Shown here: positions 18,461 through 36,902 of the stretch, one piece after another
Numbering within the stretch: the stretch's first letter is position 1
Layout: each line of letters opens with the position of its first letter
Source: a virus
Reading direction: 5' to 3' (one strand)
DNA length: 47,313 nucleotides
IMG/VR virus record: IMGVR_UViG_3300043015_001032
Coordinates: 1 to 47,313 of that record
The notes under the pieces: model-generated
Seen by the model: only the letters and a program-made list of their open reading frames with translations
Databases searched by the model: none
Told to the model about the DNA's origin: nothing
Program-made: the position numbers and the translations under genes

Positions 18461-19459
18461 ATGGCAAAAATTGATGTTACAGAACTAGACATATTCTATA
18501 TTTCATACGATGAACCTAATGCAGAAGAGCATTGGGCAGATCTACTAAACAAAGTACCCTGGGCAAAACGTGTTCATGGAGTCAAAGGTTTTGATAAAGC
18601 ACATAAAACCTGTGCAGAGCAATCAGAAACAGAAAGATTTATCACAGTAGATGGTGATAATATTGTAATGCCTGATTTCTTTGAACAGGTGTTAGATGTG
18701 CCAGACACAGATCATGATGGTAATGAAATTTCGGAAAGTATTTTTAGTTGGAATGCTAAAAATCATTTAAACGGATTAGTATACGGCAACGGTGGTCTTA
18801 AATGCTGGCCTAAACAATATGCATTAGATATGAAAACTCACGAAGATGCAGACGATGAAGAAGGTATGGAGTTTTGTTGGAAATTAAATTACATACAACT
18901 AAACGATACGTTCTCAGAAGTACATCAAACTGCATCACCTTTCCAAGCCTTTAGAGCAGGTTTTAGAGAGGGTGTTAAAATGAGTTTGGATCAAGGTGCA
19001 AGAGTTAGAGCAGATGAGTTTACAGATAAAATTTGGTGGCAAAATTATAACAGACTGCAAACATGGTGCAACATTGGTAGTGATGTAGAGAATGGCTTGT
19101 GGGCAATCTATGGAGCAAGACTAGGTTGTGAGATGACTGTTTTAACAGAATGGGATTCTAATCTTATATCAGATTACGACTGGTTTAAAGACTTTTTTAC
19201 AAATGACATACTGCCTCGTTTTCCAGGAGACACAGTATGCAAATACACAAAAGTTTCATATAACGAAGAAATGTTGTATATAGCAATTCAAGATTTAGGT
19301 GAAAAACTTAACGAAAATATTAACGAAATGATGCTGTTTGATCCCAATGAACAAATGTGTAAGTTTTTTAAGAAAACTTTTGTAAACCCTAGAAGATGGG
19401 GCGTAATGATTAGAGAAAAACAAATACAAGACTTATTAGAAAAAGGTTTAATTCAATGA
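18461..19459 (+). CDS. Glycosyltransferase-like protein (single-unit relative of the ten-repeat protein)
   Basis: A 332-residue protein with N-terminal 'LDIFYISYDEPNAEEHWADL', then 'AHKT' (47-50), 'FITVDGDNIV' with D64-G-D66, and 'NGLVYGNGGLKCWPK'. The same order of motifs (FDIVYLSYKEP, AHKT, FWVVDADA, NGLEYGYGGVKLFP) ends the 1107-residue protein at 36895-40218, so the two are homologous. The pattern is that of a GT-A glycosyltransferase with an intact DxD. 'FQAFRAGFREGVKMSL' also matches 'FSTWRSAFRECVKLTL' of the repeat protein. Donor and acceptor are unknown. The stop overlaps the SDR-like gene by 4 bases. Confidence 0.62.
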   Translation: MAKIDVTELDIFYISYDEPNAEEHWADLLNKVPWAKRVHGVKGFDKAHKTCAEQSETERFITVDGDNIVMPDFFEQVLDVPDTDHDGNEISESIFSWNAKNHLNGLVYGNGGLKCWPKQYALDMKTHEDADDEEGMEFCWKLNYIQLNDTFSEVHQTASPFQAFRAGFREGVKMSLDQGARVRADEFTDKIWWQNYNRLQTWCNIGSDVENGLWAIYGARLGCEMTVLTEWDSNLISDYDWFKDFFTNDILPRFPGDTVCKYTKVSYNEEMLYIAIQDLGEKLNENINEMMLFDPNEQMCKFFKKTFVNPRRWGVMIREKQIQDLLEKGLIQ

Positions 19460-20034
19460 ACATTTTTATGATTGGTTCTAGTTCTAGTTTTGCACAAAGC
19501 ATTATAAGTTTTTTAAAAGAAGAACATGATGTTTTTCAATTTGGTAGAAAAAATCTAAATTACAAAAACCGCCAATTATTAGAGAAAGAATTTAGTAAAT
19601 ATCCAAAACCTGATGTTGTAATTTTTAATCAACAATGTGCAACCGAAGATTACATAGATCATTCACAACAGATACCTGAAAAAATTACAGCATCAATTAA
19701 TAACTTAGTAGAAGATTTTATTATTAGTAAATTATACATCTATGATATACTAAAAGATGCAAACAAGTTTGTATTTATTACAAGTTCTATTACGAAATGG
19801 TACGATGAACAATCAGTTGACGTAGGTAAAAATAAATTTTTCTATAGAATGTTTAGAGCCGCAGAAAAAGAAATATTAAAATGTATATGCATAGAAGGTG
19901 TAAATGCATATGGGCTATGCCCGGGTGGCTTGGATCATGATCCAGAACGTTATGCAAAAACTGTAGCAAAAATGTCAGTTAGCCAAGATAAAGGATTACA
20001 TGGAAAAGTACATCTTGTAGGTGATCATATCTAG
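19456..20034 (+). CDS. SDR-like NAD(P)-dependent oxidoreductase/epimerase, atypical
   Basis: A 192-residue Rossmann-type protein. 'MNIFMIGSSSSFAQSII' replaces the usual glycine-rich TGxxxGxG loop. 'KFVFITSSITKW' (residues 104-115) matches the SDR strand carrying the catalytic Ser, Y130 sits in the catalytic Tyr position, and R134 takes the place of the expected Lys of YxxxK. 'AYGLCPGGLD' resembles the NxxxPG segment after the active site. It is short for the family (about 240-250 residues). It could be a degenerate or specialised sugar-nucleotide reductase. It starts in an ATGA overlap and its stop abuts the first radical SAM gene. Confidence 0.55.
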   Translation: MNIFMIGSSSSFAQSIISFLKEEHDVFQFGRKNLNYKNRQLLEKEFSKYPKPDVVIFNQQCATEDYIDHSQQIPEKITASINNLVEDFIISKLYIYDILKDANKFVFITSSITKWYDEQSVDVGKNKFFYRMFRAAEKEILKCICIEGVNAYGLCPGGLDHDPERYAKTVAKMSVSQDKGLHGKVHLVGDHI

Positions 20035-21570
20035 ATGAGTAGTATATACGACCAAGCCGCAGACAAGGCCAAAGAACAATTAGACGCAATAAGTCCTACA
20101 ATGTGTTATGCAAAGTGGACTCAAGTTTCTATGCACCTTACAAACGGCATGACTCACAGTTGTTATCATCCGCCAACACACAAAATTGATGTTAAAGAAT
20201 TAGAAACAAATCCTTCTGCATTACATAACACAAAAGAAAAGAAAGAACAACGTGCTCAGATGTTAGCAGGTGAGAGACCAGAAGGCTGTAGTTACTGCTG
20301 GCGTATAGAAGATGTAGGCGGCAGAAGTGACAGGGTATATCGCAGTGGCGAGTATTGGGCACAAAATGCCAGAGAAGAAATTAAAACTGCAGATGCAGAT
20401 GGAAATATTAATCCGCGATACGTCGAAGTAAACTTTAACCAAGCCTGCAACTTTAAGTGTAGTTATTGTAGTCCACATCTTAGCAACAGTTGGGAAAAAG
20501 AAATTAAAGAACATGGTCCGTATCAAATTGTACAAGGCGAACACAATAACGCAGACAGTTTAGACAGATCTGGACTTATGCCTCCTAAGTTAGCACAAGA
20601 CGAAAATCCATACGTTACAGCATTTTGGAAATGGTGGCCTGAATTATACAAAACATTAGAAGTGTTTCGTATGACAGGTGGTGAACCATTGATGGATAAG
20701 AATACATTTAAGGTTTTAGACTATGTATACAAAAATCCAAATGCCTGGTTGGAGATGTCTATGACATCGAACATGGTACCACCTAAACCTATCTTAATGG
20801 ATATGTTTATAGAGAAACTACAAAGATTAGAAGAGATACAAATTTGGGAAGACCCAGAAAAGTTTAATCCAAACTCAGGGAACAACTGGTATGTAGCACC
20901 AGCATGTAAAAACTTTGCCACGTTTGTAAGTGTAGATGGTTACGGTGAACAAGCAGAGTATATGCGTACTGGTATGGATTTTTCGGTGCTACAAAAAAAT
21001 GTTAAACGAATTTTAAAAGAAACTGATAATAGTACTATAACATTCATCAATACGTTCAATGTACTAAGTCTTACAAGTTTACGTGACTATTTACAATGGA
21101 TATTAGATTTGCGAGACGAGTATGCAAAAGATAGACAAGGAATAAAATATATTCCTATTCCAGATAATGGAGATCACAGACACCCTGACTATGAAGTAAA
21201 ACCTAAACAAAGGATATGGTTTGATATTCCTCTACTGAGAGCACCGCTTTGGCAATGCATACAAATAATGCCTGATTACTATCAAAGTTATTTAGAAGAA
21301 GCAATAGCATTTATGGAAATGAATCAAGCAGATGAAGTAAATATAGACTATAGAGGATTTAAAGACTTTGAGATAGACAAAGTTAGACGTAACTTAGAAT
21401 GGATGAAAGCAGGATCTAGTATGGATAAAGATGAACTGCTAAAAGCAAGAGCAAATTTTTATAAATTTTTTACGCAACATGATGAGCGTAGAGATACAGA
21501 TTTCTTAGCAACGTTTCCTGAAATGGAAGACTGGTGGAACATTTGTAAAGAAGCAGAGGCAATGGTATGA
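20035..21570 (+). CDS. Radical SAM protein 1, N-terminal twitch/SPASM-like (variant N-terminus)
   Basis: A 511-residue protein. The radical SAM cluster motif is C138-x3-C142-x2-C145 ('ACNFKCSYCSP'), followed by the SAM-binding 'TGGEP'. In front lies a separate cysteine region: C24, C43 in 'SCYHPPTH', and C85-x2-C88 in 'GCSYCWRIED', resembling an auxiliary-cluster (twitch/SPASM) domain placed N-terminally, as in proteins annotated 'twitch domain-containing radical SAM protein'. With the 21818 gene it forms a variant subclass lacking the CxxPW and CC motifs of the other six. Expected chemistry: reductive cleavage of SAM to a 5'-deoxyadenosyl radical; substrate unknown. Its ATG begins right after the SDR-like stop; its own stop overlaps the next gene by 4 bases. 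Confidence 0.85.
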   Translation: MSSIYDQAADKAKEQLDAISPTMCYAKWTQVSMHLTNGMTHSCYHPPTHKIDVKELETNPSALHNTKEKKEQRAQMLAGERPEGCSYCWRIEDVGGRSDRVYRSGEYWAQNAREEIKTADADGNINPRYVEVNFNQACNFKCSYCSPHLSNSWEKEIKEHGPYQIVQGEHNNADSLDRSGLMPPKLAQDENPYVTAFWKWWPELYKTLEVFRMTGGEPLMDKNTFKVLDYVYKNPNAWLEMSMTSNMVPPKPILMDMFIEKLQRLEEIQIWEDPEKFNPNSGNNWYVAPACKNFATFVSVDGYGEQAEYMRTGMDFSVLQKNVKRILKETDNSTITFINTFNVLSLTSLRDYLQWILDLRDEYAKDRQGIKYIPIPDNGDHRHPDYEVKPKQRIWFDIPLLRAPLWQCIQIMPDYYQSYLEEAIAFMEMNQADEVNIDYRGFKDFEIDKVRRNLEWMKAGSSMDKDELLKARANFYKFFTQHDERRDTDFLATFPEMEDWWNICKEAEAMV

Positions 21571-21818
21571 ACACAAAAGCAATAGTAGATGCTCTTAAAA
21601 AAGGTGTTATAACAGTTGTATTTGAAAAATTAGACACAGGCGAAGTAAGAACTATGCCGTGTACATTAAACAATAAAATATCAGGAGTAAGTATGATAAT
21701 AAAAGAATACAGTAGTCCTGATACATTAGTTATGTACGCATTAGATAAAAATGCATGGAGAGATGTCAGGGTAAACACAATACAAGATTGGTATGAAGGA
21801 TACCCAAAGGAGAAATAA
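21567..21818 (+). CDS. WYL_2/DUF2693-type small SH3-like protein
   Basis: An 83-residue protein with 'GVITVVFEKLDTGEVRTMPCTL' (split here: residues ~13-34) and a C-terminal 'VMYALDKNAWRDVRVNTI'. This resembles the small SH3-barrel phage family often annotated DUF2693/WYL_2 (VTVTFxKxDGxxRTMxCTL ... WDxxxxxWRxFR). The biochemical role is unknown; such proteins are common in T4-like phages. It is wedged between two radical SAM genes with a 4-base overlap upstream (ATGA) and a 1-base overlap downstream. Confidence 0.65.
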   Translation: MNTKAIVDALKKGVITVVFEKLDTGEVRTMPCTLNNKISGVSMIIKEYSSPDTLVMYALDKNAWRDVRVNTIQDWYEGYPKEK

Positions 21819-23479
21819 TGGGAAGAAAGCAAGGCGAAAGTCACAGAGAATATAAAGCAAGGATGATTGATCCTGTAAGTGATTCTTTTTGTGGTGCCAA
21901 GTGGTACAATGCTACTATATGGTTAGGTCACGGTGGAACAACTAGTTGTCACCATCCACCTGCACACCAAATCGATTTAGAAGAAATAAAGGATAATCCA
22001 TCTGCGATTCATAACACACGTCATAAAAAGAAAATGCGTGATATGATGCAGAAAGGTGATAGACCAAAAGAGTGTGAGTACTGTTGGAAGATAGAAGATA
22101 TGGAAAAAGACTCTGATGGCAATGAACCGGTAAGTGATAGAGTTTACAAAACAGTTATATATGAAGATGAAGATTTACATACTGCGGCAACTTTAGATCC
22201 ACAGTTTGACGTAAACTTAAAAACATTAGAAATAGCATTTAATAGAACTTGTCAGTTAGCATGTAGTTATTGCAATCCTGCATTCTCCTCTACATGGGTA
22301 AAAGATATTCGTACTAACGGAGGCTATCAAGGTATTAAGAGTGATGCAAGAGGACACTTTATTGATGATGCTCCTTACGCCGAGCCATTTGATGAAGGAC
22401 AAGCAAACCCTTATGTAGATGCATTTTGGAGATGGTGGCCCGAACTCAGTAAAGATCTAGAAGAGATTCGTGTTACTGGTGGTGAGCCACTTATGACTCC
22501 TGACATATATGAGTTATTTGATTGGTTCGAAACAACAGACGAGCCTAATAAGGACAATATGAGATTTGCTATAAACAGCAACTTAATGGCAAAGAAAGGC
22601 TTATTAGATAAACTTATTGCAGGTACACAAAACATTAATAAGTTCCATTTATACACTAGTGGTGAAGCACATGGAAGCCAATTAGAATATATCAGAGATG
22701 GATTGAATTGGGATACCTGGACACAAAATTTTGAGAGAATATGTAGCGAAGCAAACCTAGACGGCTTACATATGATGATGACAATCAATGCACTATGCTT
22801 AGATACCATAGTGGAATTTTTAGATTGGATGCTAGGAATGAAACGTAAATACGGTCATAATCGTCCTGGATTTACCTGTAACATTTTACGTTTCCCTAGT
22901 TTCCAATCGCCTTTAACATTACCAGATGACTTGCGTAAAATGTATCATGATGAAATAAGTGCCTGGTTAGATGGCGTCAGAGAACGCGAAGAGAAAGATG
23001 AAAGCGGTAACCTATTAGTACAACCATGGGAACAAGATCAATTAAGTAGACTTATAGAATATCTTGATGTTGTTAAGACTCCACATAGAAATACTGCTGA
23101 TAAAGAACTTTTAGAACATGATTTTAAATTGTTTTACGAACAGTATGATGCTAGACGTGGTTTTAATTTTAAAGAAACATTTCCTAGACTAGCAGATTGG
23201 TATGATGACATCAAAATAATACCGTTAGGAGCAGACGAACAAGACATACAAGCACCTAAAACACATGGTGTTACAGATAGTTTGTATGCAAAACGTATTG
23301 TTACAGAAGATGGTGAAGTTAAAGTTGTTGAAATGAAAATGCGAGGACGTAAAACAGGCGAAAGTGATGAAGACTATGATGATGAATTGTTTAAATTTGA
23401 ACCTGATTACAAGCCTAAAGGTGGAAGTAGTATAGGTTGGGACACAGACACAGATGGCCTTGGAGGTGCAAATGATTAA
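21818..23479 (+). CDS. Radical SAM protein 2, N-terminal twitch/SPASM-like (variant N-terminus)
   Basis: A 553-residue protein, the longest of the eight. The cluster motif is C145-x3-C149-x2-C152 ('TCQLACSYCNP'), followed by 'VTGGEPLM'. The N-terminal cysteine region parallels radical SAM protein 1: C25 before 'AKW', 'SCHHPPAHQI' and 'ECEYCWKIEDM', with 'NPSAIHNTRHKKK' also shared. Protein 1 is clearly its nearest paralogue here. The C-terminal ~90 residues are an acidic/basic extension absent from the others. The start is strong: AAAGGAGA lies 4 bases before the ATG. The expected activity is SAM-radical chemistry on an unknown substrate. Confidence 0.85.
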   Translation: MGRKQGESHREYKARMIDPVSDSFCGAKWYNATIWLGHGGTTSCHHPPAHQIDLEEIKDNPSAIHNTRHKKKMRDMMQKGDRPKECEYCWKIEDMEKDSDGNEPVSDRVYKTVIYEDEDLHTAATLDPQFDVNLKTLEIAFNRTCQLACSYCNPAFSSTWVKDIRTNGGYQGIKSDARGHFIDDAPYAEPFDEGQANPYVDAFWRWWPELSKDLEEIRVTGGEPLMTPDIYELFDWFETTDEPNKDNMRFAINSNLMAKKGLLDKLIAGTQNINKFHLYTSGEAHGSQLEYIRDGLNWDTWTQNFERICSEANLDGLHMMMTINALCLDTIVEFLDWMLGMKRKYGHNRPGFTCNILRFPSFQSPLTLPDDLRKMYHDEISAWLDGVREREEKDESGNLLVQPWEQDQLSRLIEYLDVVKTPHRNTADKELLEHDFKLFYEQYDARRGFNFKETFPRLADWYDDIKIIPLGADEQDIQAPKTHGVTDSLYAKRIVTEDGEVKVVEMKMRGRKTGESDEDYDDELFKFEPDYKPKGGSSIGWDTDTDGLGGAND

Positions 23480-24227
23480 TTTGTATGCTAATATTGGCAT
23501 AGGTCATGAAAACGATTGGAACAATATAAAAGATCGTGTAGTATCTGCGGCTCAATGCAACGCAGATGCAATTATAATTAACAAAGCAACACCTACACTT
23601 TCTATTCCAGAAGAAAAGAAGTATCTTAGTATAAACAGCAAATGGGGTAATTTACCTTACATAGAAGTTGCTAAACGCAGTGAAATAGATGAACTAACTG
23701 TTAGAAAATTTAATGAACTAACTACTCAAATAGGTATTCCTGTAATATGGAGTGTATCTGATAGCGAAGCCGCAAGTTGGGTAAAAGATTATACTGACTG
23801 TACACACATAAAGATACATTTTGATTCTAGAAACGAAAAAGAACTTGTAGACTTTTGCATGGTATCATTTGATAAAATAATTTATCCAGGTGCTGGATCT
23901 TGGGGAGAGCATATTATATCTAAATACCCAAGAAGTGTAGATAAACAAAAACTAAGTTTTTATCATACTACAAAAGATTTTCCACCACAAGTAGAGAATT
24001 TAAATCTTAATAAACTTAACGAATTTAGAAAGACTCAGCATATAAAAATAGGTTACGAAGGAAGAAGTGAAGATATTTTTCCTGATTGTGCTGTAGTATT
24101 TAAGGATGTAGATTATATAGAAAAGTTTTTAGGCAATGACGGAGAAGAAAATCCTGCAATATTAACACCTCAAAAATTTTATGATTTTTTTATCAATATG
24201 AATCAATTAGAGATAGCAAATGGCTAA
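23472..24227 (+). CDS. NeuB-like (N-acetylneuraminate synthase family) TIM-barrel protein, atypical
   Basis: A 251-residue protein matching the NeuB barrel in layout: 'ANIGIGHENDWNNIKDRV' (like EIGxNHxGD), 'AAQCNADAIIIN' (like AxxAGADAVKFQ), 'GIPVIWSVSDSEAASWV' (like GIxFLSTPFDxxSVD), 'LSFYHTTKDFPPQVENLNL' (161-179, like the YPTPxxxxNL step) and 'IGYEGRS' (193-199, like VGYSDHT). NeuB condenses PEP with an aldose to make sialic-acid-type nonulosonates. Here the 'KFQ' segment is replaced and there is no C-terminal SAF domain, so activity is uncertain. Start: GGAGGT at 23462-23467 precedes the 23472 ATG; an in-frame ATG at 23454 is less likely. Confidence 0.6.
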   Translation: MINLYANIGIGHENDWNNIKDRVVSAAQCNADAIIINKATPTLSIPEEKKYLSINSKWGNLPYIEVAKRSEIDELTVRKFNELTTQIGIPVIWSVSDSEAASWVKDYTDCTHIKIHFDSRNEKELVDFCMVSFDKIIYPGAGSWGEHIISKYPRSVDKQKLSFYHTTKDFPPQVENLNLNKLNEFRKTQHIKIGYEGRSEDIFPDCAVVFKDVDYIEKFLGNDGEENPAILTPQKFYDFFINMNQLEIANG

Positions 24228-25623
24228 AATAAAGCCTAAATGGGAACACGGTGCTATGCACCCCGAATCAGAAAATAAAGTTTTCTGTACAGCACCATGG
24301 ACACATACCTATATTTCTCCTCAAAGTGAGAGGCGTATGTGCTGTGCTAGTCGTGAAGACCATATGATGCAGAAACAATATATTGATGCTAGTAATGATA
24401 AAAGCACAGGACTATTTAGACCAGTAGGAACAATAGCAGACTACAAGCCAGTAACATTAAAAGAACATTGGAACTCACCTTACATGATGGACATAAGAAA
24501 GAAACTTATGGCAGGTGAGGAAATACCACAATGTAATGTTTGTAACGATAGTGTATTAAGCCAAAGTACATATAGACAATGGTTTACTGGTTACTTGTTT
24601 GAAAATAAAATAGATCAATGTTTTGAGGAGACAGACGAAAATGGATATACTACAATGGAACCTATCTCTTTTGATTATAGGGTTAGTAATTTATGCAATT
24701 TTAAATGCCGTATGTGTGGTGAACCGCTCAGTTCAGCATGGGAGGCCGAGAAGCGAAAGCATGATCAATGGTCGCCTGAAAACCAGCCGTTCATGGTTCC
24801 AGAGAATAAAAAGATAATAGACAAGTTTCAAAAGGAAGTTGTTGAAGAAGAGTTTTGGGAATACATTTGTAGTGGTACAGTTGAAGAATTGTATTGGGTG
24901 GGTGGCGAACCACTAATGTATGATATACATTGGCGAGCGATGGATAGGTTAGCACAAGATGACACACTTAAACTTGTACACTTACGTTACAACAGTAATC
25001 TAAGTCGTGTGAGATTAGGTAAACATTACCTGTATGAATGGTTACCACAAGCAAAAGACTGGACTATGTGTGCAAGTATTGATGGTACTGGTTGGATAGG
25101 AGAGTTTATTCGTACAGGTTTAGATTGGGAACAATGGGACAAAAATTTTAGAGAAGGCGTAGCATTACCTGGCGGTAAAGATAAAATGTTAATGGACTTA
25201 ACACTCACAGGACCTGGAATGTTAGATTTAAAAAACTTTTTTGACTATGCTTTAGAACTTGATGTTAAAATAGAAACAAAAAGGATGTTTGCATTTCACA
25301 GTGATATAGTTTTTAGTCCTATGGCATGGCCAAGACACATATTAGATCGTATTATACATGAAAACTTAGACTATATACGCCCACGTGCAACTCATAAACA
25401 ACAAACTCTAATTAATGAATTAGAAAATATGCTAACTGTTCCTACATTTGAGGAACAATGGCCAGAAGAACATGAAGATAGTTTCTTTAAAGGCAGAAAA
25501 TGGCAACGTAGAATTGCTGAAATGAGGCCAGAAGAAGCAGTTACTATAGAAGATGTTTACAAATTAGACAGCGAATTATACGATTGGTGGATGAGAGTAG
25601 ACAAATACGACAACCAAAGATAA
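24220..25623 (+). CDS. Radical SAM protein 3, N-terminal twitch/SPASM-like
   Basis: A 467-residue protein with C159-x3-C163-x2-C166 ('LCNFKCRMCGE') and 'WVGGEPLMY'. The N-terminal region has the fuller SPASM-like pattern: C23 in 'VFCTAPWTH', C41-C42 in 'RMCCASRE', a 'LKEHWNSPYMMDIRKKLMAG' segment, then C105-x2-C108. This is the layout of auxiliary-cluster domains, but placed before the radical SAM barrel. It starts within the NeuB-like gene (8-base overlap) and ends in a TAATG shared with the sulfotransferase-like gene. It sits between NeuB-like and sulfotransferase-like genes, so a carbohydrate-related substrate is possible but unproven. Confidence 0.85.
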   Translation: MAKIKPKWEHGAMHPESENKVFCTAPWTHTYISPQSERRMCCASREDHMMQKQYIDASNDKSTGLFRPVGTIADYKPVTLKEHWNSPYMMDIRKKLMAGEEIPQCNVCNDSVLSQSTYRQWFTGYLFENKIDQCFEETDENGYTTMEPISFDYRVSNLCNFKCRMCGEPLSSAWEAEKRKHDQWSPENQPFMVPENKKIIDKFQKEVVEEEFWEYICSGTVEELYWVGGEPLMYDIHWRAMDRLAQDDTLKLVHLRYNSNLSRVRLGKHYLYEWLPQAKDWTMCASIDGTGWIGEFIRTGLDWEQWDKNFREGVALPGGKDKMLMDLTLTGPGMLDLKNFFDYALELDVKIETKRMFAFHSDIVFSPMAWPRHILDRIIHENLDYIRPRATHKQQTLINELENMLTVPTFEEQWPEEHEDSFFKGRKWQRRIAEMRPEEAVTIEDVYKLDSELYDWWMRVDKYDNQR

Positions 25624-26321
25624 TGTTAGCAGTATCAAAATACGAAAAAAAGGCATATTATAGTTTAGGAAAAACAGGAACTACTACATTAGTATCAGCA
25701 TTATCTGATAAAGATTGGTACAAAACAGGTGAATTTAGTGCTGATTTTATGACTAAAATCTTTCCTATACCATATATAGGCTGGAAAGAAGGGTATGTAC
25801 TGCAATACGAATCACTAAAAACATTGTATCTAAACAATTATGAAATAACTGTTCTTATTCGAGATCCATGGGAACGATATGTCAGTGGTATAAAAGAAAT
25901 ATTGCAAGATTATACAGAAAATATAATAACTCCGGCAAATTTAAATGATATTGTAACAGATATCAGCAGATGTACAAAAGTTTTAGACAGAATGTTTTAT
26001 TTGTCTGAGTTTAGAACATCTAATAAATTTGAGTTCGATAAAGATTTTCCTTATCCCTCAGACTTTGCATTACATCATAATTATCATATTAAAAATTGGT
26101 TATGGCAATTTGATGAACTACAAAATATAGTCTTTTTAGATTCTAAAAATCTTAGTCAGCATATTAGTGATCTAGGTTTGCCTATTACTAAAAATCAAAA
26201 TGTTTCTGATCCTAGACAGATAGAATGTATCGATAAAGCATTAAGAAATACTGAGATATATTACTATATAACAAGGTATTTACAATCTGAAATATCTAGA
26301 TATAACAATTACACCAGATAA
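25623..26321 (+). CDS. Sulfotransferase-family-like protein
   Basis: A 232-residue protein with both PAPS-binding signatures of sulfotransferases: 'KTGTTTL' (residues 17-23, the 5'-phosphosulfate loop) and 'IRDPWERYVSG' (79-89, the 3'-phosphate site RDPxxRxxS). The expected reaction is sulfate transfer from PAPS to a hydroxyl, such as a sugar. I chose the ATG at 25623, sharing one base with the upstream stop (TAATG); an in-frame ATG at 25584 would overlap the radical SAM gene by 40 bases. No PAPS-synthesis gene is in the window, so PAPS would come from the host. The stop overlaps a late-promoter-like motif. Confidence 0.68.
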   Translation: MLAVSKYEKKAYYSLGKTGTTTLVSALSDKDWYKTGEFSADFMTKIFPIPYIGWKEGYVLQYESLKTLYLNNYEITVLIRDPWERYVSGIKEILQDYTENIITPANLNDIVTDISRCTKVLDRMFYLSEFRTSNKFEFDKDFPYPSDFALHHNYHIKNWLWQFDELQNIVFLDSKNLSQHISDLGLPITKNQNVSDPRQIECIDKALRNTEIYYYITRYLQSEISRYNNYTR

Positions 26322-26324
26322 ATA
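26317..26324 (+). promoter_or_regulatory. Possible T4-type late promoter
   Basis: GATAAATA spans the end of the sulfotransferase-like gene (its TAA is inside the motif) and lies 36 bases before the dehydrogenase ATG. It is followed by TAACTG rather than the CTA/GTA seen elsewhere, so it is weaker. The leader would carry AGGAG about 7 bases before the ATG. Confidence 0.4.
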
Positions 26325-26360
26325 TAACTGTATTTTATACAAACACAACAGGAGATAAAG

Positions 26361-27677
26361 ATGGCCTCAGTCGGATTTATCGGTGTAGGTAAGTTAGGAC
26401 AAGCCTGTGCCGAGATGGTCGCTGAAGTACATGATGTTGTTGGGTATGATGTTAATCCTGTAGAGCCTGAAAACTTTACAATGAGTGACACGTTAGAAGG
26501 AGCAGTTGTAGGACAAGATATTGTTTTTATTGCTGTACCTACACCGCATGACCCAAAATATGATGGAAAAGCACCAACCAGCCATTTACCAAATAAGGAC
26601 TTTGATTATAGTTTAGTCAAACAAGTACTTACAGAAGTAAATGCGGTTGCAACAAAAGACCAATTAGTAGTCCTTATATCAACAGTACTCCCTGGAACCA
26701 CCAGGAGAGAGTTTATTGATTTAATTCCAAATGCCAGATTCGTTTACAATCCATATCTTATTGCTATGGGTACAGTAAAGTGGGATATGGTTAATCCAGA
26801 AATGGTAATGATTGGAACCGAAGACGGAAGTGAAACAGGTGATGCAAAACAACTTGTTGACTTCTACAAAACAATAATGCAGAACGAACCCAGATACATA
26901 ATTGGTACTTGGGACGAAACAGAATGTATTAAAGTATTTTACAACACATTTATTAGTGCTAAAGTAAGTCTAGTAAACATGATACAAGACGTTGCAGAAA
27001 ACTTAGGTAATATAAATGCAGAAGTAGTATGTGATGCACTTGCAACTTCAGACAGACGTATTATGGGACCAGGTTACATGAAGCCAGGCATGGGCGATGG
27101 TGGTGCTTGTCACCCTAGAGATAATATTGCTTTACGTTGGATGGCTGAAGAACTTGATCTTGGATATGACTTGTTTGATGCTGTAATGCTTAGTAGAGAA
27201 AAACAAGCAGAAAACATGGCAAAACGATTAATAGATTTGGCATGTGAAACACATCCTGCATTTGGTCGTATTCCTGATTTACCTATTATTATTGTAGGTA
27301 AAGCATACAAGCCACTAGTAGAATATGAAGCCGGTTCGGCGAGTATGTTAGTGGGCCACTATGTAGAAAAGGGAAACTGTGACTTACATTACTATGATGA
27401 AAAAACAGGAGATATTCCTCCGCAAGAAGTGTTAGATAATCCAGCAGTATATCTATTAGCACATAACCCAAGTATTACATACGGTGATCAATTAGATACT
27501 GTACCAGGTTGGTATGGCGATCATAAAGTTACAGACTGCGACGATGCATTAGTATCAACAGGCAACGGAACAGAATTAACTTTTGCACCAGGTAGTATTG
27601 TAGTTGACCCGTGGAGAAAGACACCAGATATAGAAGGTGTAAATGTAATTCATTACGGTAATACGAGAAAGAGATAA
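26361..27677 (+). CDS. Nucleotide-sugar dehydrogenase (UDP-glucose 6-dehydrogenase family)
   Basis: A 438-residue protein of normal family length. The N-terminal NAD site is 'GFIGVGKLG' (GxGxxG at 8-13), followed by 'VGYDVN'. The middle helix has 'KVFYNTFISAKVSLVNMI', with K201 and N206 in the positions of the conserved Lys/Asn, and the catalytic cysteine is C250 in 'GDGGACHPRDN' (family: GGSCFPKD). The C-terminal domain has 'IIIVGKAYKP' (family GLAFKP). Reaction: two-step NAD-dependent oxidation of a UDP-hexose C6 to the uronic acid. Sugar and base specificity cannot be read. AGGAG precedes the ATG. The next gene follows after 2 bases. Confidence 0.85.
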   Translation: MASVGFIGVGKLGQACAEMVAEVHDVVGYDVNPVEPENFTMSDTLEGAVVGQDIVFIAVPTPHDPKYDGKAPTSHLPNKDFDYSLVKQVLTEVNAVATKDQLVVLISTVLPGTTRREFIDLIPNARFVYNPYLIAMGTVKWDMVNPEMVMIGTEDGSETGDAKQLVDFYKTIMQNEPRYIIGTWDETECIKVFYNTFISAKVSLVNMIQDVAENLGNINAEVVCDALATSDRRIMGPGYMKPGMGDGGACHPRDNIALRWMAEELDLGYDLFDAVMLSREKQAENMAKRLIDLACETHPAFGRIPDLPIIIVGKAYKPLVEYEAGSASMLVGHYVEKGNCDLHYYDEKTGDIPPQEVLDNPAVYLLAHNPSITYGDQLDTVPGWYGDHKVTDCDDALVSTGNGTELTFAPGSIVVDPWRKTPDIEGVNVIHYGNTRKR

Positions 27678-27679
27678 AA

Positions 27680-29005
27680 ATGAGTGAGCCTAGATATTGT
27701 AGTTTATTGTGGAAACACATCAGCAACGAGCCGTTAGGACATGTTCGTACATGTTGTATAGCAAGAGAACGAATAAAAAATCCTGTAGGGCAAGAGTATA
27801 CTCTAGGCGGAACTCCTTTAAGAGATATCTTTCATAGTGATCATTATAAAAAAATAAGACAAGAAATAAGAGATGGAAAATTACCAGATAATTGTGCGCC
27901 TTGTTGGCAAGACGAAAAAAATGGTAAAAAATCTAAAAGATTATTATACAACGAAATTGCAGAACAAAGGTATGGCGACATAGAATATGCTGAAGAACCA
28001 GATATGCCAGAAGATATACAACTTATTTTAAGTAATACATGTAATTTAAAATGCAGAAGTTGTAATCCTAATTATAGTAGCAAATGGGTTAAAGAAGCAG
28101 AAGATAGAAATTTACCATATGTTCAAGAAAAAGTTGCAGTTAAAGTAAACGATCAACAATCTTTTTTCTGGAGCAAAATGAATGATTGGTTACCTCATGT
28201 TAGATTCCTCGAAGTAATGGGAGGTGAACCATTATATATGAAAGAATTCAAGCAGTTTGCAGAAAAGTTAATCGATGACAATATTGCTAAAGATGTAGAG
28301 ATTACATTTAGTACAAATGGCACAACATTAAATAAAAAATTTATGGAAAAAATGATTAACAATTTTAAATCAATAGGATTTAATGTTAGTATAGATGCCG
28401 CAGTACAAAAAAGATTTGAGTATTTACGTCATGGTGCTGATTGGAAAGAAGTTGTAGATAACTTAGACTACTTTCATAATTTAGTAGAAGAACGTGGACT
28501 TAGTATCGGTATAACAATTACAGTAACCGTTTTTAATGTTATGTATCTTGCAGAATTACATAAGGCATTCGAAGAACGTTGGCCAAAATTTTTATTATTT
28601 CATAACATAGCAAATTTCCCTACATGGTTTAACTCTAATATATTTCCGGAAGAAGCAAAACCAGAAATATTAGAGCCTATAAAAGATTTAACACAATTTA
28701 GAGAAGAATACAGAGACGAAATACAAGGTATAATACATCATGTTATGATGCCAAGAAACGAAACAGTTATTCCATATGGAGATAGCGGTGAGGATACAAT
28801 TGATGCAGAAATAGAAAAACGATGGTTTATGTTTTGTAAAGAAATTGTTGCTGGAGATTTATATAGAAAAGAATTATTTGGAGATTGTTTCCCTGAACTA
28901 TTTACAATATTAGTAAAACATAAATCTTTTAATTATAGAAACATAGAATATAATGTAGTAAATTTTCCTGACTATGGAAAATTTGATAAAGGTGGTTTAA
29001 TATAA
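27680..29005 (+). CDS. Radical SAM protein 4, N-terminal twitch/SPASM-like
   Basis: A 441-residue protein, the first of five consecutive radical SAM genes. C121-x3-C125-x2-C128 ('TCNLKCRSCNP') and 'VMGGEPLYM' mark the core. N-terminal cysteines: C7 ('RYCSLLWKH'), C25-C26 ('RTCCIARERI'), C72-x2-C75 ('DNCAPCWQDEKNGKKSKR'), with an intervening 'LRDIFHSDHYKKIRQEI' like the SPASM 'eiW.s..~lR' segment. The ending 'EKRWFMFCKEIVAGDLYRKELF...FPEL' matches the C-terminal tail type of its paralogues. It shares one base with the next start. Substrate unknown. Confidence 0.85.
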   Translation: MSEPRYCSLLWKHISNEPLGHVRTCCIARERIKNPVGQEYTLGGTPLRDIFHSDHYKKIRQEIRDGKLPDNCAPCWQDEKNGKKSKRLLYNEIAEQRYGDIEYAEEPDMPEDIQLILSNTCNLKCRSCNPNYSSKWVKEAEDRNLPYVQEKVAVKVNDQQSFFWSKMNDWLPHVRFLEVMGGEPLYMKEFKQFAEKLIDDNIAKDVEITFSTNGTTLNKKFMEKMINNFKSIGFNVSIDAAVQKRFEYLRHGADWKEVVDNLDYFHNLVEERGLSIGITITVTVFNVMYLAELHKAFEERWPKFLLFHNIANFPTWFNSNIFPEEAKPEILEPIKDLTQFREEYRDEIQGIIHHVMMPRNETVIPYGDSGEDTIDAEIEKRWFMFCKEIVAGDLYRKELFGDCFPELFTILVKHKSFNYRNIEYNVVNFPDYGKFDKGGLI

Positions 29006-30243
29006 TGAGCAAAACATTTTGCCCGTTACCATGGAACCACTTAGGCACACACCCGCATGGCGGTGTTACACCTTGTTGTATTTCAGATATGACAGCAGGT
29101 AAAAATAGAGCAAGAAATTACGGTGAAGACCGAGATGAATTCTTCAACCTAAATGATCACAATATAGAAACACACATGAATAGTGATTATTTTAAACAGA
29201 TTAGAAAGGAGATGTTAAATGATATTGAGCCTCAAGCATGTAAAAGATGCTACCAGGAAGAAGGAAAAGGCCTTGAGAGCAAACGTGTCTACGAGTCCAA
29301 GATTTATAAGGACATTAACACCGATTACGCATCCAGAATTACTAGTGAGGACGGTAGCATACCTATGGACCTTCGCTTTGTTGAGTTGCGTCTTGGTAAT
29401 GTATGCAATGTTAGGTGTCGCACATGTAATCCGGCAAGTAGTTCAAGGTGGGTGGCAGACTATAAAAAGATTGTGGACTCATTAGAGTTTGTAAATGATG
29501 GATACAGTTGGTTAGATCACAAACATGATTTTCAATGGCCAGAAGACGAAAATTTTTATGAGGATTTATTTAAATGTGCACCTAATTTAGAAGTACTTTA
29601 TATAAATGGCGGAGAGCCTACATTAATAAAAGCACATTGGAAGTTTTTAGAAATGCTTGTGGAAAGTGGTCGTAGTAAAAATATTATATTATGGTATAAT
29701 ATTAACATGACAAATTTACCAGATAAAGCAATACCATTATGGAAAGAATTTAAAGAAGCCAGAGTTTGTCCTAGTATAGACGACTTAAATCACAGAAACA
29801 AATATATAAGATATCCTACAGAATGGTCAGATGTAGAGAGCAATTTAGATACTATATTAGCAGTACCAGAACTTACAGTTAGAATAACACAAACGGTTAG
29901 TGCATATAGTTACATTTATTTGGACGAGTTTTTAAACTGGGCACCATGTCCAGTTGATATGAACTTTGTATATGACCCTGATTACCTATCGCCTGGAATA
30001 TTACCTCCTGTCGTGAGACACGAGGCCCATACCAAGTTTAGAAAAACGATGGGTAACAGACATGAACTCGGAACATTGTTGAGCATGTATAATGACGATG
30101 ATTGGGATGAAGTTAAGTGGGAACACTTTTGTCGGTACAATGACGAGTTAGATAAAATACGCCAACATGAAGAAGGTTGGAGGGAAATATTCCCAGAATT
30201 AATAGAACTTTTAGAGAAACATGACATTCAGCACAGATATTAA
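29005..30243 (+). CDS. Radical SAM protein 5, N-terminal twitch/SPASM-like
   Basis: A 412-residue protein. Core: C134-x3-C138-x2-C141 ('VCNVRCRTCNP') and 'INGGEPTLI'. N-terminal cluster ligand candidates: C6 in 'TFCPLPWNH', C24-C25 in 'TPCCISDM', C79-x2-C82 before 'YQEEGKGLESKR'. The 'GKGxxSKR' linker after the CxxC is shared with proteins 4 and 7. The C-terminus reads 'REIFPELIELLEKHD', a tail motif (FPEL) recurring in several of the set. Start and stop overlap the neighbouring radical SAM genes by 1 and 23 bases. Confidence 0.85.
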   Translation: MSKTFCPLPWNHLGTHPHGGVTPCCISDMTAGKNRARNYGEDRDEFFNLNDHNIETHMNSDYFKQIRKEMLNDIEPQACKRCYQEEGKGLESKRVYESKIYKDINTDYASRITSEDGSIPMDLRFVELRLGNVCNVRCRTCNPASSSRWVADYKKIVDSLEFVNDGYSWLDHKHDFQWPEDENFYEDLFKCAPNLEVLYINGGEPTLIKAHWKFLEMLVESGRSKNIILWYNINMTNLPDKAIPLWKEFKEARVCPSIDDLNHRNKYIRYPTEWSDVESNLDTILAVPELTVRITQTVSAYSYIYLDEFLNWAPCPVDMNFVYDPDYLSPGILPPVVRHEAHTKFRKTMGNRHELGTLLSMYNDDDWDEVKWEHFCRYNDELDKIRQHEEGWREIFPELIELLEKHDIQHRY

Positions 30244-31444
30244 AGATCACAAAAATGATGTGATGTGTATCCTACCTTGGATTCATATGCACCCATGGCC
30301 TAATGGAAAAACTATGCTGTGTTGTGATTCACCATGGGAAGACCATATAGGTGATTTGCGAGAAAATAGTTTACAAGAAGTGTGGAATAGCGAACGTATG
30401 AAACAAGTTCGCTTAAACATGTTAAACGGTAAAAAGTGTTCGCAATGTGTACGTTGCTATGAGAAAGAAGAAAAAGGTCATGACAGTTTAAGAGTCAGAA
30501 GCAATCGCGACTGGTTAGAACCTCATTGGGATAAAGTTGAAAAAACAAATGCAGATGGAAGTTTAGATGATCTACATATAGTATATTTAGATTTTAGATT
30601 TAGTAATGTATGCAACTTACGTTGTAGATATTGTGGGCCTGAATTAAGCAGTAACTGGTATGCTGATGCTAAAGCAAGTACATTTAATGTGAGTCCTACA
30701 GAAAGAATCATACAAATTCGTAAAGACGTTGATGGCTTTATGGACGAGTTCGAACCTATGCTAGAACACATAGAACAAATATATTGGGCAGGTGGCGAGC
30801 CTATTATGATGGACGAGCATTGGGGTATAATGAATAAATTAGTAGAAATGGGTAAAACAGATATACGCATTTTTTATAATACAAACTTTACAACATTAAA
30901 TTATAAAAAATATGATGTGATAGAACTTTGGAAAAACTTTGATAAAATAAGTATAGGTGCTAGTTTAGATGCAGAAGGCGTACGAGGAGAATATCAACGT
31001 AAAGGTACTGTATGGTCAGATGTAGAAACCAATATACAGCGACTAAAAAAAGAAGCACCTGAAATAGATTTTTATATAAGTGCAACGGTCAGTGCCTATA
31101 ACGCCTGGCATATCACAGACTTCCATAGAAGTTGGGTTGACAAAGGTTACATCAAACCAGGCGACTGGTATATGAATGTACTTTTAAATAACCCACGTTT
31201 TAGAATGAGTGTGCTACCTGCAACACTAAAAGAAGAAATAAAAACAAAGTGGCAAAAACATTTAGAATGGTTAGAGCCTCAAGATCATATTGGTAGAGCA
31301 ACAGAAGGCTACAAAAGTTCTATTCAATTTTTAGATGACGACCACACAAATTTGTTAGATGAATTTAAAGCATTTAATGTAGAATTTGATAAACTGAGAG
31401 ATGAAAATTTCGATGATGTGTACCCGGAGTTATCTGGAATATGA
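30221..31444 (+). CDS. Radical SAM protein 6, N-terminal SPASM-like
   Basis: A 407-residue protein with the most complete SPASM-like N-terminus of the series: C16 in 'MCILPWIH', C34-C35, then 'IGDLRENSLQEVWNSERM' and 'VRLNMLNGKKCSQCVRC'. Core: C131-x3-C135-x2-C138 ('VCNLRCRYCGP') and 'WAGGEPIMM'. The 30221 ATG overlaps the previous gene by 23 bases, while an in-frame ATG at 30263 (M15, just before the first cysteine) would match the very short lead of protein 7; I kept the longer form but the start is open. Substrate unknown. Confidence 0.83.
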   Translation: MTFSTDIKDHKNDVMCILPWIHMHPWPNGKTMLCCDSPWEDHIGDLRENSLQEVWNSERMKQVRLNMLNGKKCSQCVRCYEKEEKGHDSLRVRSNRDWLEPHWDKVEKTNADGSLDDLHIVYLDFRFSNVCNLRCRYCGPELSSNWYADAKASTFNVSPTERIIQIRKDVDGFMDEFEPMLEHIEQIYWAGGEPIMMDEHWGIMNKLVEMGKTDIRIFYNTNFTTLNYKKYDVIELWKNFDKISIGASLDAEGVRGEYQRKGTVWSDVETNIQRLKKEAPEIDFYISATVSAYNAWHITDFHRSWVDKGYIKPGDWYMNVLLNNPRFRMSVLPATLKEEIKTKWQKHLEWLEPQDHIGRATEGYKSSIQFLDDDHTNLLDEFKAFNVEFDKLRDENFDDVYPELSGI

Positions 31445-32586
31445 GTTGCATATTACCATTTATAAATTTAGAAGCCAGAACTGATGGTACTATGGCGGCA
31501 TGTTGTATCATGCAAGAAACAGCAAAAAAAGATGATGGTACAGAATTTAATTTAGTAAATGGCGACACATTTAGTGATGTAAAAAATAGTAAATGGTTAA
31601 AAACTTTACAGGAAGATTTTGTACATGGAAAAAAATTCGAAGCATGTAATAATTGCTGGAAGGAAGAAGAAGCAGGTATAGAAAGTAAAAGATTGAGAGA
31701 AAACAAATTTTGGGGAGAAGACTTTAGACCCGATATAAAATCTTTAGATTTAAAATTAGGAAATATTTGTAATGCAAAATGTAGAATATGTAGCAGTTTT
31801 GCAAGTAGTCAATGGGCGGCAGAAGAAGTTAAAATGAATCCTCATAATGAAACAGCAAAACTGTTTAATAAGTTAGGAATGTGGCCGAAAAAGAATGAAG
31901 CATTTTGGGAAGACATAGACAAACATTTGCAAAACGTAGAGAAATTAGAATTTTTTGGTGGTGAACCGTTGCTTATCGAACGACATTATGAAATATTAGA
32001 AAGATGTGTAGAACTAGGTATAGCAGAAAACATAAGGATTGCATATAATACAAATGGTTCTATTTTCCCACAAGATAAAATATCTCTATGGGAAAAATTT
32101 AAGCGGGTAGAAATATTTGTAAGTCTAGATGATATAGATAATAGATTCGAATATATAAGACATCCAGGTAAATTTTCTGAAGCAATGTATCATTTAGAGT
32201 TATTTAATAAATTACCAAAAGATAAATTTGAGATAGGAATTTTTCAAACTTTTAGTATTTTTAATATTTGCAATATGGAAGAATTAACAAAACATGTAGA
32301 TAAAGATATACGCATACACTACAATATGGTGTTTACACCTAGTCATATATCGCCTAAAGTTTTACCAAAAAGAGTAAAAGAAAAAATAACATTAATGTAT
32401 AAAGATGCACCAGACTATATACAAAAAACATTAAAATTTATGAACGGCGATTCTTATGAAGATCGAGAGTGGCATAACTTTATACTAACAACAAAATTAA
32501 TAGATAAACATAGAGAAGAAAAATTTGAAAAAACATTTCCTACTTTGTTTAAACTTATAGAGAAAGATTGGAATGGAATACAGTAA
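31441..32586 (+). CDS. Radical SAM protein 7, N-terminal twitch/SPASM-like
   Basis: A 381-residue protein, the shortest of the eight. Core: C110-x3-C114-x2-C117 ('ICNAKCRICSS') and 'FFGGEPLLI'. N-terminal cysteines: C3 in 'MSCILPFIN', C21-C22 and C69-x2-C72 ('EACNNCWKEEEAGIESKR'). Most of the size difference is in the spacing between the N-terminal cluster and the barrel. The start uses an ATGA overlap with protein 6 and the stop overlaps protein 8 by 14 bases. The C-terminal 'FEKTFPTLFKLIEK' matches the tail of the paralogues. Confidence 0.84.
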   Translation: MSCILPFINLEARTDGTMAACCIMQETAKKDDGTEFNLVNGDTFSDVKNSKWLKTLQEDFVHGKKFEACNNCWKEEEAGIESKRLRENKFWGEDFRPDIKSLDLKLGNICNAKCRICSSFASSQWAAEEVKMNPHNETAKLFNKLGMWPKKNEAFWEDIDKHLQNVEKLEFFGGEPLLIERHYEILERCVELGIAENIRIAYNTNGSIFPQDKISLWEKFKRVEIFVSLDDIDNRFEYIRHPGKFSEAMYHLELFNKLPKDKFEIGIFQTFSIFNICNMEELTKHVDKDIRIHYNMVFTPSHISPKVLPKRVKEKITLMYKDAPDYIQKTLKFMNGDSYEDREWHNFILTTKLIDKHREEKFEKTFPTLFKLIEKDWNGIQ

Positions 32587-33877
32587 AACATTTTGTCCGT
32601 ATCCGTGGATACATGTAATGACACAACCAACAGGAACAGTAAGTTGGTGCTGTGTTGCTCGTGACAATTTTAAAAACGATGATGGCAGTATGTTTGATCT
32701 CAATAGAGGAGACAAAATTGAGAAAGTATGGAATAGCAATCATATGCGTAAAATCCGTAAGCAGATGATAGAAGGCGACGTGGTAAAAGGTTGTGAGCAT
32801 TGCTATGATTTAGAAGACATGGGATTCCCAAGTTATAGAACAAATTACATCAGAGACTGGTTTGAGTACAGTGAACGTGGAGAAGAAATACAAAACATTA
32901 TAGAAAAAAGTATTAATAATGATTATGTTGTAGAAGAGTCTCCAATGTATTTAGACTTTAGACTTGGCAATATGTGTAACCTGAAGTGTAGAATGTGCCA
33001 GCCTCAAAATAGTTCACAGATACAAAAAGAATATGCAAAGATTGAAGGTAATGATCCGTTAGCAGGTCAGTTTATAAAAGACAATTTTACTTGGGGACAG
33101 TTTGTAGATAACTTAACTAATTGGGAAGATGATCCAGACTTCTTAAAACAAGTCGAGGAATGGTTACCTAATGTGAGTAAACTTTACTTCACAGGGGGCG
33201 AACCAACTATTATTGAACGTGTATATTGGATTATGGAAAAGTGTGTAGAAATGGGAATTGCTAAAGATATCGAGTTAGTGTTTAATAGTAATATGACTAA
33301 TATACAAAAACGTTTCTTAGACTTAGTAGAGCAGTTTAAGAAAGTTCTAATGTGTGTAAGTGTAGATGCATATGGCCATGAGAATGAATATATCAGAGGT
33401 GCAAGTCATTGGAAACAAGTTGAGAAAAACTTGCGTAAATATTGTGCTAGTGATGTTATAGGTACTGTTTTGTTTAGTCCTGTTATACAAATATACAATG
33501 TATTAACTATTACAAAATTACTGACATTTATAGAAGATCTAGAAATAGAATATGGCAGAGAAGTATTTGTAACATTTCTAATTTGTGATTATCCAACAAG
33601 TTTAGACTTTAGAAACTGCCCAGAGCAAGTTAGAGAAGTTGCCGCAGGTAGATTAGAAATGTGGCTCAAACAAAGTAAAGTTTTAGCAAATAGGCCAGAA
33701 AATGTTCAAAGTATAAATGCAACAATTAAGGCGTTAAAAGAAAATAGAAAAGAAAATTGGGAGCAGGAATTAGTTACGTTTAAAAAATATACAAAATTAT
33801 TAGATAAACAGCGAAATGAAAACATGGAAGAAGCACTACCAGAACTTTGGAGATTAATGTATGCATCAAATAGATAA
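32573..33877 (+). CDS. Radical SAM protein 8, N-terminal twitch/SPASM-like
   Basis: A 434-residue protein, last of the uninterrupted run of five. Core: C135-x3-C139-x2-C142 ('MCNLKCRMCQP') and 'FTGGEPTII'. N-terminal cluster region: C8 in 'TFCPYPWIH', C26-C27 in 'SWCCVARD', 'KVWNSNHMRKIRKQMIEG', C74-x2-C77 ('GCEHCYDLEDMGFPSYR'). 'MYLDFRLGNMC' before the core is shared with proteins 5-7 (LxFRxxNxC), and it ends 'NMEEALPELWRLM'. Start and stop overlap neighbours by 14 and 17 bases. Substrate unknown; activity is plausible because all ligands are present. Confidence 0.85.
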   Translation: MEYSKTFCPYPWIHVMTQPTGTVSWCCVARDNFKNDDGSMFDLNRGDKIEKVWNSNHMRKIRKQMIEGDVVKGCEHCYDLEDMGFPSYRTNYIRDWFEYSERGEEIQNIIEKSINNDYVVEESPMYLDFRLGNMCNLKCRMCQPQNSSQIQKEYAKIEGNDPLAGQFIKDNFTWGQFVDNLTNWEDDPDFLKQVEEWLPNVSKLYFTGGEPTIIERVYWIMEKCVEMGIAKDIELVFNSNMTNIQKRFLDLVEQFKKVLMCVSVDAYGHENEYIRGASHWKQVEKNLRKYCASDVIGTVLFSPVIQIYNVLTITKLLTFIEDLEIEYGREVFVTFLICDYPTSLDFRNCPEQVREVAAGRLEMWLKQSKVLANRPENVQSINATIKALKENRKENWEQELVTFKKYTKLLDKQRNENMEEALPELWRLMYASNR

Positions 33878-34481
33878 TATTTGGGTATTCGGCGATAGTT
33901 ACGGTTCTGATGACTGCGAACATACATATATTAATATATTAAAACAAAAATTTAATGCACATATAAAGCATTTAGGTCAAAGAGGACATGGTCCTATATC
34001 TACATATGAACGATTTGCAGATGCACACAGGTTTATAAATGAGGGAGAAAATAATGATTTATGTATTATATTATGGAGCGAAAGTTTTAGAAGATGCGAT
34101 AAACATGGACTCCCTATCCCAGGACCAAATGCACAAATCAGAGATCCATATATTTCGGAAAATTACAAACTTGCAGTAAATTTATATCATGCACACTTAC
34201 AAAATCATTTACACGATATATCAACACTAGATGCTCTTCAAAAGGCTATTTCAGCAATGTGCCTACAAAAAAATACCATAAACTTACAATATTTTTGTTT
34301 TCCAGAAGAGGCAAAATATTTTAACCACGATTTTGATCTTTCTACTTTTAGTGTAACTTCGGATAATTTAGATGATTATACAGAAGAAGAATTTAGAAAT
34401 TTTAAGAATCATATGAGTCAAAAAAGTAATAAACTGTTTGCAGAAAAAATAATTAATGATTATGAAAAAATTACTAACTAA
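33861..34481 (+). CDS. SGNH/GDSL-like hydrolase or esterase
   Basis: A 206-residue protein with 'IWVFGDSYGSDDCEHTY' at the N-terminus, where G11-D12-S13 is the block I Ser motif of SGNH hydrolases, followed by 'GQRGHGPISTYE' (block II Gly) and 'CIILWSESFRR' (block III region). The C-terminus has 'NHMSQKSNKLFAEKI', which could supply the catalytic His, although the usual DxxH is not clear. The family removes or transfers acyl groups on lipids and sugars; in a glycan island, acetyl-ester chemistry is a reasonable guess. It overlaps radical SAM protein 8 by 17 bases and the next SGNH-like gene by 26. Confidence 0.55.
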   Translation: MHQIDNIWVFGDSYGSDDCEHTYINILKQKFNAHIKHLGQRGHGPISTYERFADAHRFINEGENNDLCIILWSESFRRCDKHGLPIPGPNAQIRDPYISENYKLAVNLYHAHLQNHLHDISTLDALQKAISAMCLQKNTINLQYFCFPEEAKYFNHDFDLSTFSVTSDNLDDYTEEEFRNFKNHMSQKSNKLFAEKIINDYEKITN

Positions 34482-35085: not shown

Positions 35086-35204
35086 GCGAAGATAAAGACA
35101 AAAAAGAAGAAGAACTTAACTTAGATCTCACAAAAGAAGAAGAAGAAAAGTTAAAAAAGAAATTAGAAGAACTTAGAAAAAGAGACCCGTTCGTATATAG
35201 ATAA
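35082..35204 (+). CDS. Very small charged protein (40 aa)
   Basis: A 40-residue gene in the only gap between two coupled genes: its ATG overlaps the upstream TGA (ATGA) and its TAA shares one base with the next ATG (TAATG). The sequence is almost only Lys/Glu/Asp/Leu ('KKEEELNLDLTKEEEEKL'), forming an amphipathic helix with the tail 'RDPFVYR'. The precise overlap at both ends supports translation. The function is unknown. Confidence 0.6.
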   Translation: MSEDKDKKEEELNLDLTKEEEEKLKKKLEELRKRDPFVYR

Positions 35205-36718: not shown

Positions 36719-36902
36719 TTGGTATAAAATCCAAAGAAAACTAGAAGGCAGATGTCATATGTGCGGCGGTGACTTACCTGATCATAGGGGTGTATGCTCT
36801 GTGTACGGAGAAGAACTTAAAAAAAGATATGATTTGTTGAACAAATCAGTTAAAAAAATCAGCGATATAGCAGAAGGTATTATAAAAAAACATAATGTTT
36901 GA
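36705..36902 (+). CDS. Small zinc-ribbon-like protein
   Basis: A 65-residue protein with 'GRCHMCGGDLPDHRGVCSV': C17-x2-C20 and C31, with H27 as a possible fourth ligand, followed by a helical basic tail. It looks like a half zinc ribbon; the function is unknown. It overlaps the carbamoyltransferase by 14 bases and the giant repeat gene by 8, so it is translated as part of the operon. Confidence 0.55.
   Translation: MSEIDWYKIQRKLEGRCHMCGGDLPDHRGVCSVYGEELKKRYDLLNKSVKKISDIAEGIIKKHNV

Follow-up and report, generated by a model that had tools for sequence, protein, structure and literature searches.

Why should a phage carry eight radical S-adenosylmethionine (SAM) enzymes in one locus? The question is raised by IMG/VR virus record IMGVR_UViG_3300043015_001032, a stretch of 47,313 bases from an uncultivated aquatic phage (the window; coordinates count from its first base, and all window features given with coordinates lie on the + strand), in which eight intact open reading frames (ORFs), here called R1 to R8, fall between positions 20035 and 33877. 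We propose, with a probability of roughly one half, that R1-R8 serve a phage glycan pathway as tailoring enzymes and are encoded in a fibre-linked glycosylation island.

The array comprises R1 (20035-21570, 511 aa), R2 (21818-23479, 553 aa), R3 (24220-25623, 467 aa), R4 (27680-29005, 441 aa), R5 (29005-30243, 412 aa), R6 (30221-31444, 407 aa), R7 (31441-32586, 381 aa) and R8 (32573-33877, 434 aa). The last five, R4-R8, directly follow one another, each pair of neighbours sharing 1-23 bases, in agreement with the initial annotation of this DNA, which had described five consecutive genes at 27680-33877. Exactly one CX3CX2C and one GGEP motif are found in each protein, again as that annotation had stated. 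Ahead of CX3CX2C, all eight carry a cysteine module of the form C..C..CxxC within residues 3-108, and four of its cysteines (C16, C35, C76 and C79 in R6 numbering) are invariant, so that seven cysteines in total are shared along with GGEP by proteins whose pairwise identity is 18-34%. The second cysteine set had been described as CxxPW, CC and CxxC or a variant of these. The four cysteines before the barrel are indeed invariant, but CxxPW and CC are not general: R1 and R2 carry the variant CYAKW/CGAKW together with a single cysteine (SC-[YH]-HPP), and the CxxPW position reads CSLLW in R4 and CILPF in R7.

All eight proteins match NCBIfam model NF033640 (twitch domain-containing radical SAM protein, N_Twi_rSAM) over about positions 1-398 of the profile, with scores of 331 (R1), 305 (R2), 291 (R3), 287 (R4), 358 (R5), 402 (R6), 315 (R7) and 358 bits (R8). 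Since the curated cut-off is 170 bits, scores of 287-402 bits are not due to chance, and the earlier call of eight radical SAM ORFs with an N-terminal cysteine set is confirmed at the family level. The cysteine arrangement itself is not new, as it already defines a named family; PHROG labels for R1-R8 are generic names only. The SPASM domain PF13186 is found above cut-off at the N-terminus of five of the eight (R3, at residues 23-109, R4, R5, R6 and R8) and as a weak match just under cut-off in R7, and the Pfam search gave no match to it in R1 or R2. Against the PDB, a profile of the N-terminal region (95 positions) matched a single protein, BtrN (E 3.9e-4); the match lies in BtrN's C-terminal twitch domain, whose cysteines align with those of the R family. 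BtrN oxidises an aminocyclitol. The R1-family profile also matches BlsE, a cytosylglucuronate decarboxylase.

The identity of this module is further supported by AlphaFold2 models of R6 (predicted local distance difference test score, pLDDT, 93.8; predicted template modelling score, pTM, 0.90) and R1 (pLDDT 95.2, pTM 0.92), in which the N-terminal module is confidently modelled. The folds nearest to the R6 model are SkfB, anSMEcpe and CteB (E 7e-8 to 4e-6, TM about 0.4), and among viral structures the R1 model is closest to phage proteins that carry Fe-S or radical SAM annotations. The five SPASM matches, the BtrN match and the confident models all point the same way as the initial annotation: the N-terminal cysteine module resembles an auxiliary-cluster (twitch) domain placed before the barrel. 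Radical SAM proteins of other types also occur in related islands: of L097:9311-10426 and L094:19252-19998, one carries a C-terminal SPASM domain (its cluster spans 11 records) and the other a B12-binding domain.

Are all eight copies maintained? We compared 507 sequences, namely R1-R8 together with 499 relatives drawn from related IMG/VR contigs. CX3CX2C is kept in every one of them, and each N-terminal cysteine in 484-503; missing cysteines are mostly alignment gaps, some of them from ATG-only start calls that clip the N-terminus. Six sequences are without the N-terminal CxxC, four of which start at an internal or late ATG. Decay of the copies is thus ruled out for the set. In a tree of 87 proteins, built by a quick method and with some long branches, each of R1-R8 forms a clade with orthologous proteins of other phages; Bdellovibrionota proteins are present as well in six of these clades (R1, R2, R3, R5, R6 and R7), and the R4 and R8 clades have no bacterial members. 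Pairwise ratios of nonsynonymous to synonymous substitution rates (dN/dS), taken against three relatives, are 0.05-0.13 for R1, R2, R3, R5, R6 and R8, 0.21-0.28 for the faster evolving R4 and 0.29-0.40 for the fastest evolving R7, the latter two being the loosest of the eight; these values are rough because dS exceeds 1 in many pairs. Judged from such sequence comparisons, R1-R8 are old, separately conserved lineages under purifying selection. The view that eight copies are separately maintained, put forward before any homologue had been compared, is borne out by the eight orthologous clades, by dN/dS ratios of 0.05-0.40 and by the lack of decaying copies in related phages.

What the enzymes act on is best approached through the genes that accompany them. 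A tail-fibre protein with a C-terminal Peptidase_S74 chaperone (7613-11191; PF13884, PHROG tail fiber) lies upstream of a cassette that opens with w12030 (12030-13052), a Ser/Thr/Gly-rich protein (26.8% S+T) whose composition and place in the cassette suggest a fibre-like structural role. It is followed by w13117 (13117-13476), a conserved cassette protein of 119 aa, by two glycogenin-like, GT8-type glycosyltransferases, GT13 (13460-14353; profile against glycogenin E 2.5e-6) and GT16 (16936-17802; family profile matches glycogenin), both in phrog_1903, by w17 (17789-18439), a 216-aa protein conserved in synteny, and by GTdgd18 (18461-19459), a syntenic DxD-motif protein (DGD or DAD) and putative glycosyltransferase. 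Profile searches of the PDB with w12030, w13117 and GTdgd18 returned nothing convincing. In many relatives the radical SAM genes start directly after GTdgd18; the window has one extra gene (19456-20034) between them.

Among the best 80 loci of a GTdgd18 scan, in which neighbours were identified by profile search and the counts are not population frequencies, the order w12030, w13117, two GT13/16-type genes, GTdgd18 and radical SAM is nearly constant and on the same strand. GT13/16-type genes are present at 76 of these loci, w13117 at 72, w12030 at 67 and a radical SAM gene within 6 kb at 52. What is new here is that the array prolongs a strict cassette found in dozens of IMG/VR contigs, in which a fibre-like protein, a small protein, two GT8 glycosyltransferases and a DGD protein are followed by radical SAM.

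Genes for sugar metabolism are interleaved with the array or adjoin it, and support a glycan substrate: a NeuB-like sugar-acid synthase (23454-24227; PF03102), a sugar dehydrogenase of the UDP-glucose 6-dehydrogenase type (26361-27677; PF00984/PF03721, matching UDP-glucose 6-dehydrogenases in the PDB at E 7e-20) and a NolO-type carbamoyltransferase (35204-36718; PF16861/PF02543, phrog_1601). Carbamoyltransferase, NeuB and sugar dehydrogenase genes are typical of surface glycans. For 92 accessory proteins, the top 25 Pfam families include 2-oxoglutarate-Fe(II) oxygenases, methyltransferases, a cytidylyltransferase, NeuB, a DegT aminotransferase and an epimerase. The larger genes from 13460 to 42281 all lie on the + strand with mostly short gaps or overlaps, so co-transcription is likely. 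Three relatives (G006, G010 and G018) have a 366-aa gene between R1 and R2; the one copy scanned of the three, that of G018 (L105:9563-10663), is a SAM synthetase, as would be expected if SAM is consumed. An A-type Fe-S carrier occurs in four of 16 records, several of them fragments, and at that count is not shown to be a general companion.

The other genes of the island are a small WYL_2 (Sm-like) protein between R1 and R2 (21567-21818; PF10902), an SGNH-hydrolase-like protein (33861-34481) with a GDS motif seen by eye only and no Pfam match, and a DUF6071 protein (34456-35085; PF19547), SGNH-like by eye. A 1107-aa tandem-repeat protein (36895-40218) is related in sequence to GTdgd18; it has about ten degenerate repeats (for example FWLVD...IHIFKLP...GGIKLVP), and by eye the DxD-like DAD is kept by the last repeat only. 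The island ends with a 234-aa protein (40185-40889) recognised by synteny, methyltransferase-like by eye only and with no family match. A reading of 25584-26321 as a sulfotransferase was dropped, as it has no Pfam support.

Since SPASM-type enzymes often call to mind ribosomally synthesised and post-translationally modified peptides (RiPPs), we considered whether R1-R8 mature a small precursor. The best candidate is the product of a small ORF that precedes the carbamoyltransferase gene (35067-35204). It belongs to a set of peptides of 29-77 aa with a near-invariant C-terminal DPF[IV]Y plus one residue, a variable N-terminus and no convincing Pfam match. The peptide does recur, being found in most islands that hold the carbamoyltransferase, with or without radical SAM genes. 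However, a pattern scan of IMG/VR for this peptide gave 80 loci, of which 66 have the carbamoyltransferase and just 25 a radical SAM gene (some of the remaining stretches are short), which argues that the peptide is a partner of the carbamoyltransferase; conservation at the C-terminus with a variable N-terminus is also the reverse of the usual leader-core precursor. Among the small ORFs listed across the window, no other conserved one lies between the radical SAM genes. A peptide cascade of the RiPP type is unlikely for lack of any precursor ORF associated with the array, and the DPFIY peptide in particular is a very improbable substrate; we dropped the idea.

We further note that such arrays are neither rare nor confined to viruses. 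NF033640 matches number 3-19 in each of 30 related virus records, a range that is not a population frequency because the records were chosen for holding a relative of R1. R1 has 432 related stretches in IMG/VR, and R7 alone as query found nothing there. All of R1-R8 are present in the window's order in four relatives (G001, G024, G030 and G008). Among INPHARED isolates, tblastn gave no match for R1, GTdgd18, GT16, w12030 or w13117, and R6 had only matches of 24-26%, in Vibrio phages. The lineage is probably T4-like, since gp23 is present in 12 of 16 records searched; the window, itself a fragment, is among the four without it. One IMG/VR virus record, G016, with a deposited length of 607,744 bases, holds both gp23 and a radical SAM array of the R1-R7 type.

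Bdellovibrionota, the group that includes the bacteria-eating Bdellovibrio, provide the bacterial counterparts. Relatives of R5 were found in two metagenome-assembled genomes of this group, and in the order to which one of them belongs 31 of 57 genomes have NF033640 matches above cut-off, some of them many. Six of the eight lineages (R1, R2, R3, R5, R6 and R7) have orthologues in Bdellovibrionota chromosomes, and the idea of a virus-only feature is therefore not supported. In genome G085 (L308:13151-19533, L309:57-5147), R2-R3-R5-R6-R7 genes follow one another in phage order, and behind them come genes resembling R1 and R2. Genes identified by eye as obg and rpmA are nearby, and at about 4-7 kb from this array there are genes for a family-2 glycosyltransferase and an NTP transferase. 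A second genome, G031 (L176, L178), also has an NF033640 array. A third, G072 (L316), has w12030, w13117, GT13, GT16, a 163-aa protein, GTdgd18 and radical SAM on a contig with housekeeping genes, an island that may have a prophage origin. A 143-aa ORF inside a bacterial array (Sel1/TPR-like by eye) was weighed as a substrate and set aside.

These observations suggest a pathway in which the product of the glycosyltransferases would be a glycan whose sugars the radical SAM enzymes would then tailor, for example by oxidising, epimerising or deoxygenating them at different carbons while the twitch cluster accepts electrons, each paralogue presumably acting on its own position or sugar. Because the cassette is linked to the Ser/Thr-rich w12030, virion fibres are the first candidate target and the host envelope the second; this preference for the virion over the host is no more than a leaning. 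Several findings weigh against tailoring of a glycan as such. Over its full length, R6 is closest in fold to peptide or protein maturases and not to sugar enzymes, and comparison of the R1 model with PDB folds gave no match at E<1e-3. Radical SAM genes are absent within 6 kb at 28 of the 80 cassette loci, and the arrays of G085 and G031 have no glycosyltransferase between their radical SAM genes. Furthermore, w12030 is a presumed virion protein, and its glycosylation is putative.

In the main rival, the enzymes would make successive changes (oxidation, epimerisation, crosslinks) directly on w12030 or a tail fibre. Peptides or proteins are the substrates of those SPASM/twitch relatives with solved structures that come closest to R6, tail-fibre genes precede the array in an island whose cassette starts with w12030, and the bacterial arrays stand without glycosyltransferases between their genes. 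We nevertheless consider direct protein modification doubtful, as the cassette holds two glycogenin-like glycosyltransferases, sugar genes are interleaved with the array, and the array contains no small Cys-rich or leader-type ORF that could be a substrate. A variant of the glycan pathway itself would aim it at the host envelope, in an O-antigen-like remodelling that blocks superinfection. The carbamoyltransferase, NeuB and sugar dehydrogenase of the window would suit such a role, which has been proposed for the glycosyltransferase-rich islands of pelagimyophages that also hold radical SAM cassettes (PMC7029224). This too is improbable on present evidence, given that no polymerase, flippase or export gene appears among the top 25 of the larger number of Pfam families in the 92 accessory proteins and that the fixed partner of the cassette is a fibre-like protein. 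Returning to glycan tailoring, its most specific form would have up to eight twitch radical SAM enzymes dedicated to rewriting the sugars that a phage-encoded system places on the virion's fibres; Bdellovibrionota would share this module and may employ it on fibre-like adhesins of their own. We offer this version only tentatively. We know of no earlier description of virion glycans tailored by radical SAM enzymes.

Marine-phage radical SAM genes have been listed in several surveys without an established role. The present analysis gives them a defined setting, a fixed fibre-glycosyltransferase cassette to which eight conserved enzyme lineages are added here; it also identifies their extra domain as a BtrN-like twitch that sits at the N-terminus instead, and finds counterparts in bacteria. 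On this basis their substrates can be tested for directly. If the enzymes do act on virion or surface glycans, uncultivated viruses would hold a large reservoir of radical sugar chemistry.

The number of genes, which the initial annotation had thought unusual, has precedents. A marine environmental T4-like genome, TARA_ERS488813_N000010, carries 12 radical SAM genes and an A-type Fe-S carrier (Nishimura 2017, PMC5332604), which, with the 3-19 copies per related record, rules out uniqueness of the array; the account of these genes in that paper, as far as consulted, does not say to which sub-family they belong, how they are ordered, what surrounds them or what they do. The 261 viral 'ahbD' auxiliary metabolic gene instances from the Baltic Sea (PMC9301287) may be NF033640 proteins under another name, a guess from the wording of that paper. 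The closest published context is the host recognition cluster of pelagimyophages, which are T4-like aquatic myoviruses, with tail fibres, glycosyltransferases (GT8 commonest), UDP-glucose dehydrogenase and radical SAM cassettes, the latter distinguishing the clusters of two phages (Zaragoza-Solas 2020, PMC7029224). The window likewise combines tail-fibre genes, glycosyltransferases and sugar-nucleotide genes; the relevant passages of that paper mention radical SAM cassettes in passing, and do not describe a fixed cassette, eight lineages or bacterial counterparts.

At the level of the enzymes, R1-R8 match NF033640 over nearly its full length and differ from it in nothing at the family level, and the name of that model states no function. 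SPASM-domain RiPP maturases carry SPASM or twitch after the barrel and have a precursor gene adjoining the maturase, whereas R1-R8 have the cysteine module N-terminal in all eight and no conserved small ORF between the genes. BtrN (2-deoxy-scyllo-inosamine dehydrogenase; PDB 4m7s) provides the only PDB sequence match of the N-terminal module, with aligned cysteines in its twitch domain, which likewise follows the barrel in BtrN and precedes it in R1-R8; a shared substrate is not implied. The Bdellovibrionota arrays differ in that they adjoin housekeeping genes and have no members in the R4 and R8 clades of the tree; they share with the phage array six orthologous lineages, the gene order of G085 and the cassette of G072.

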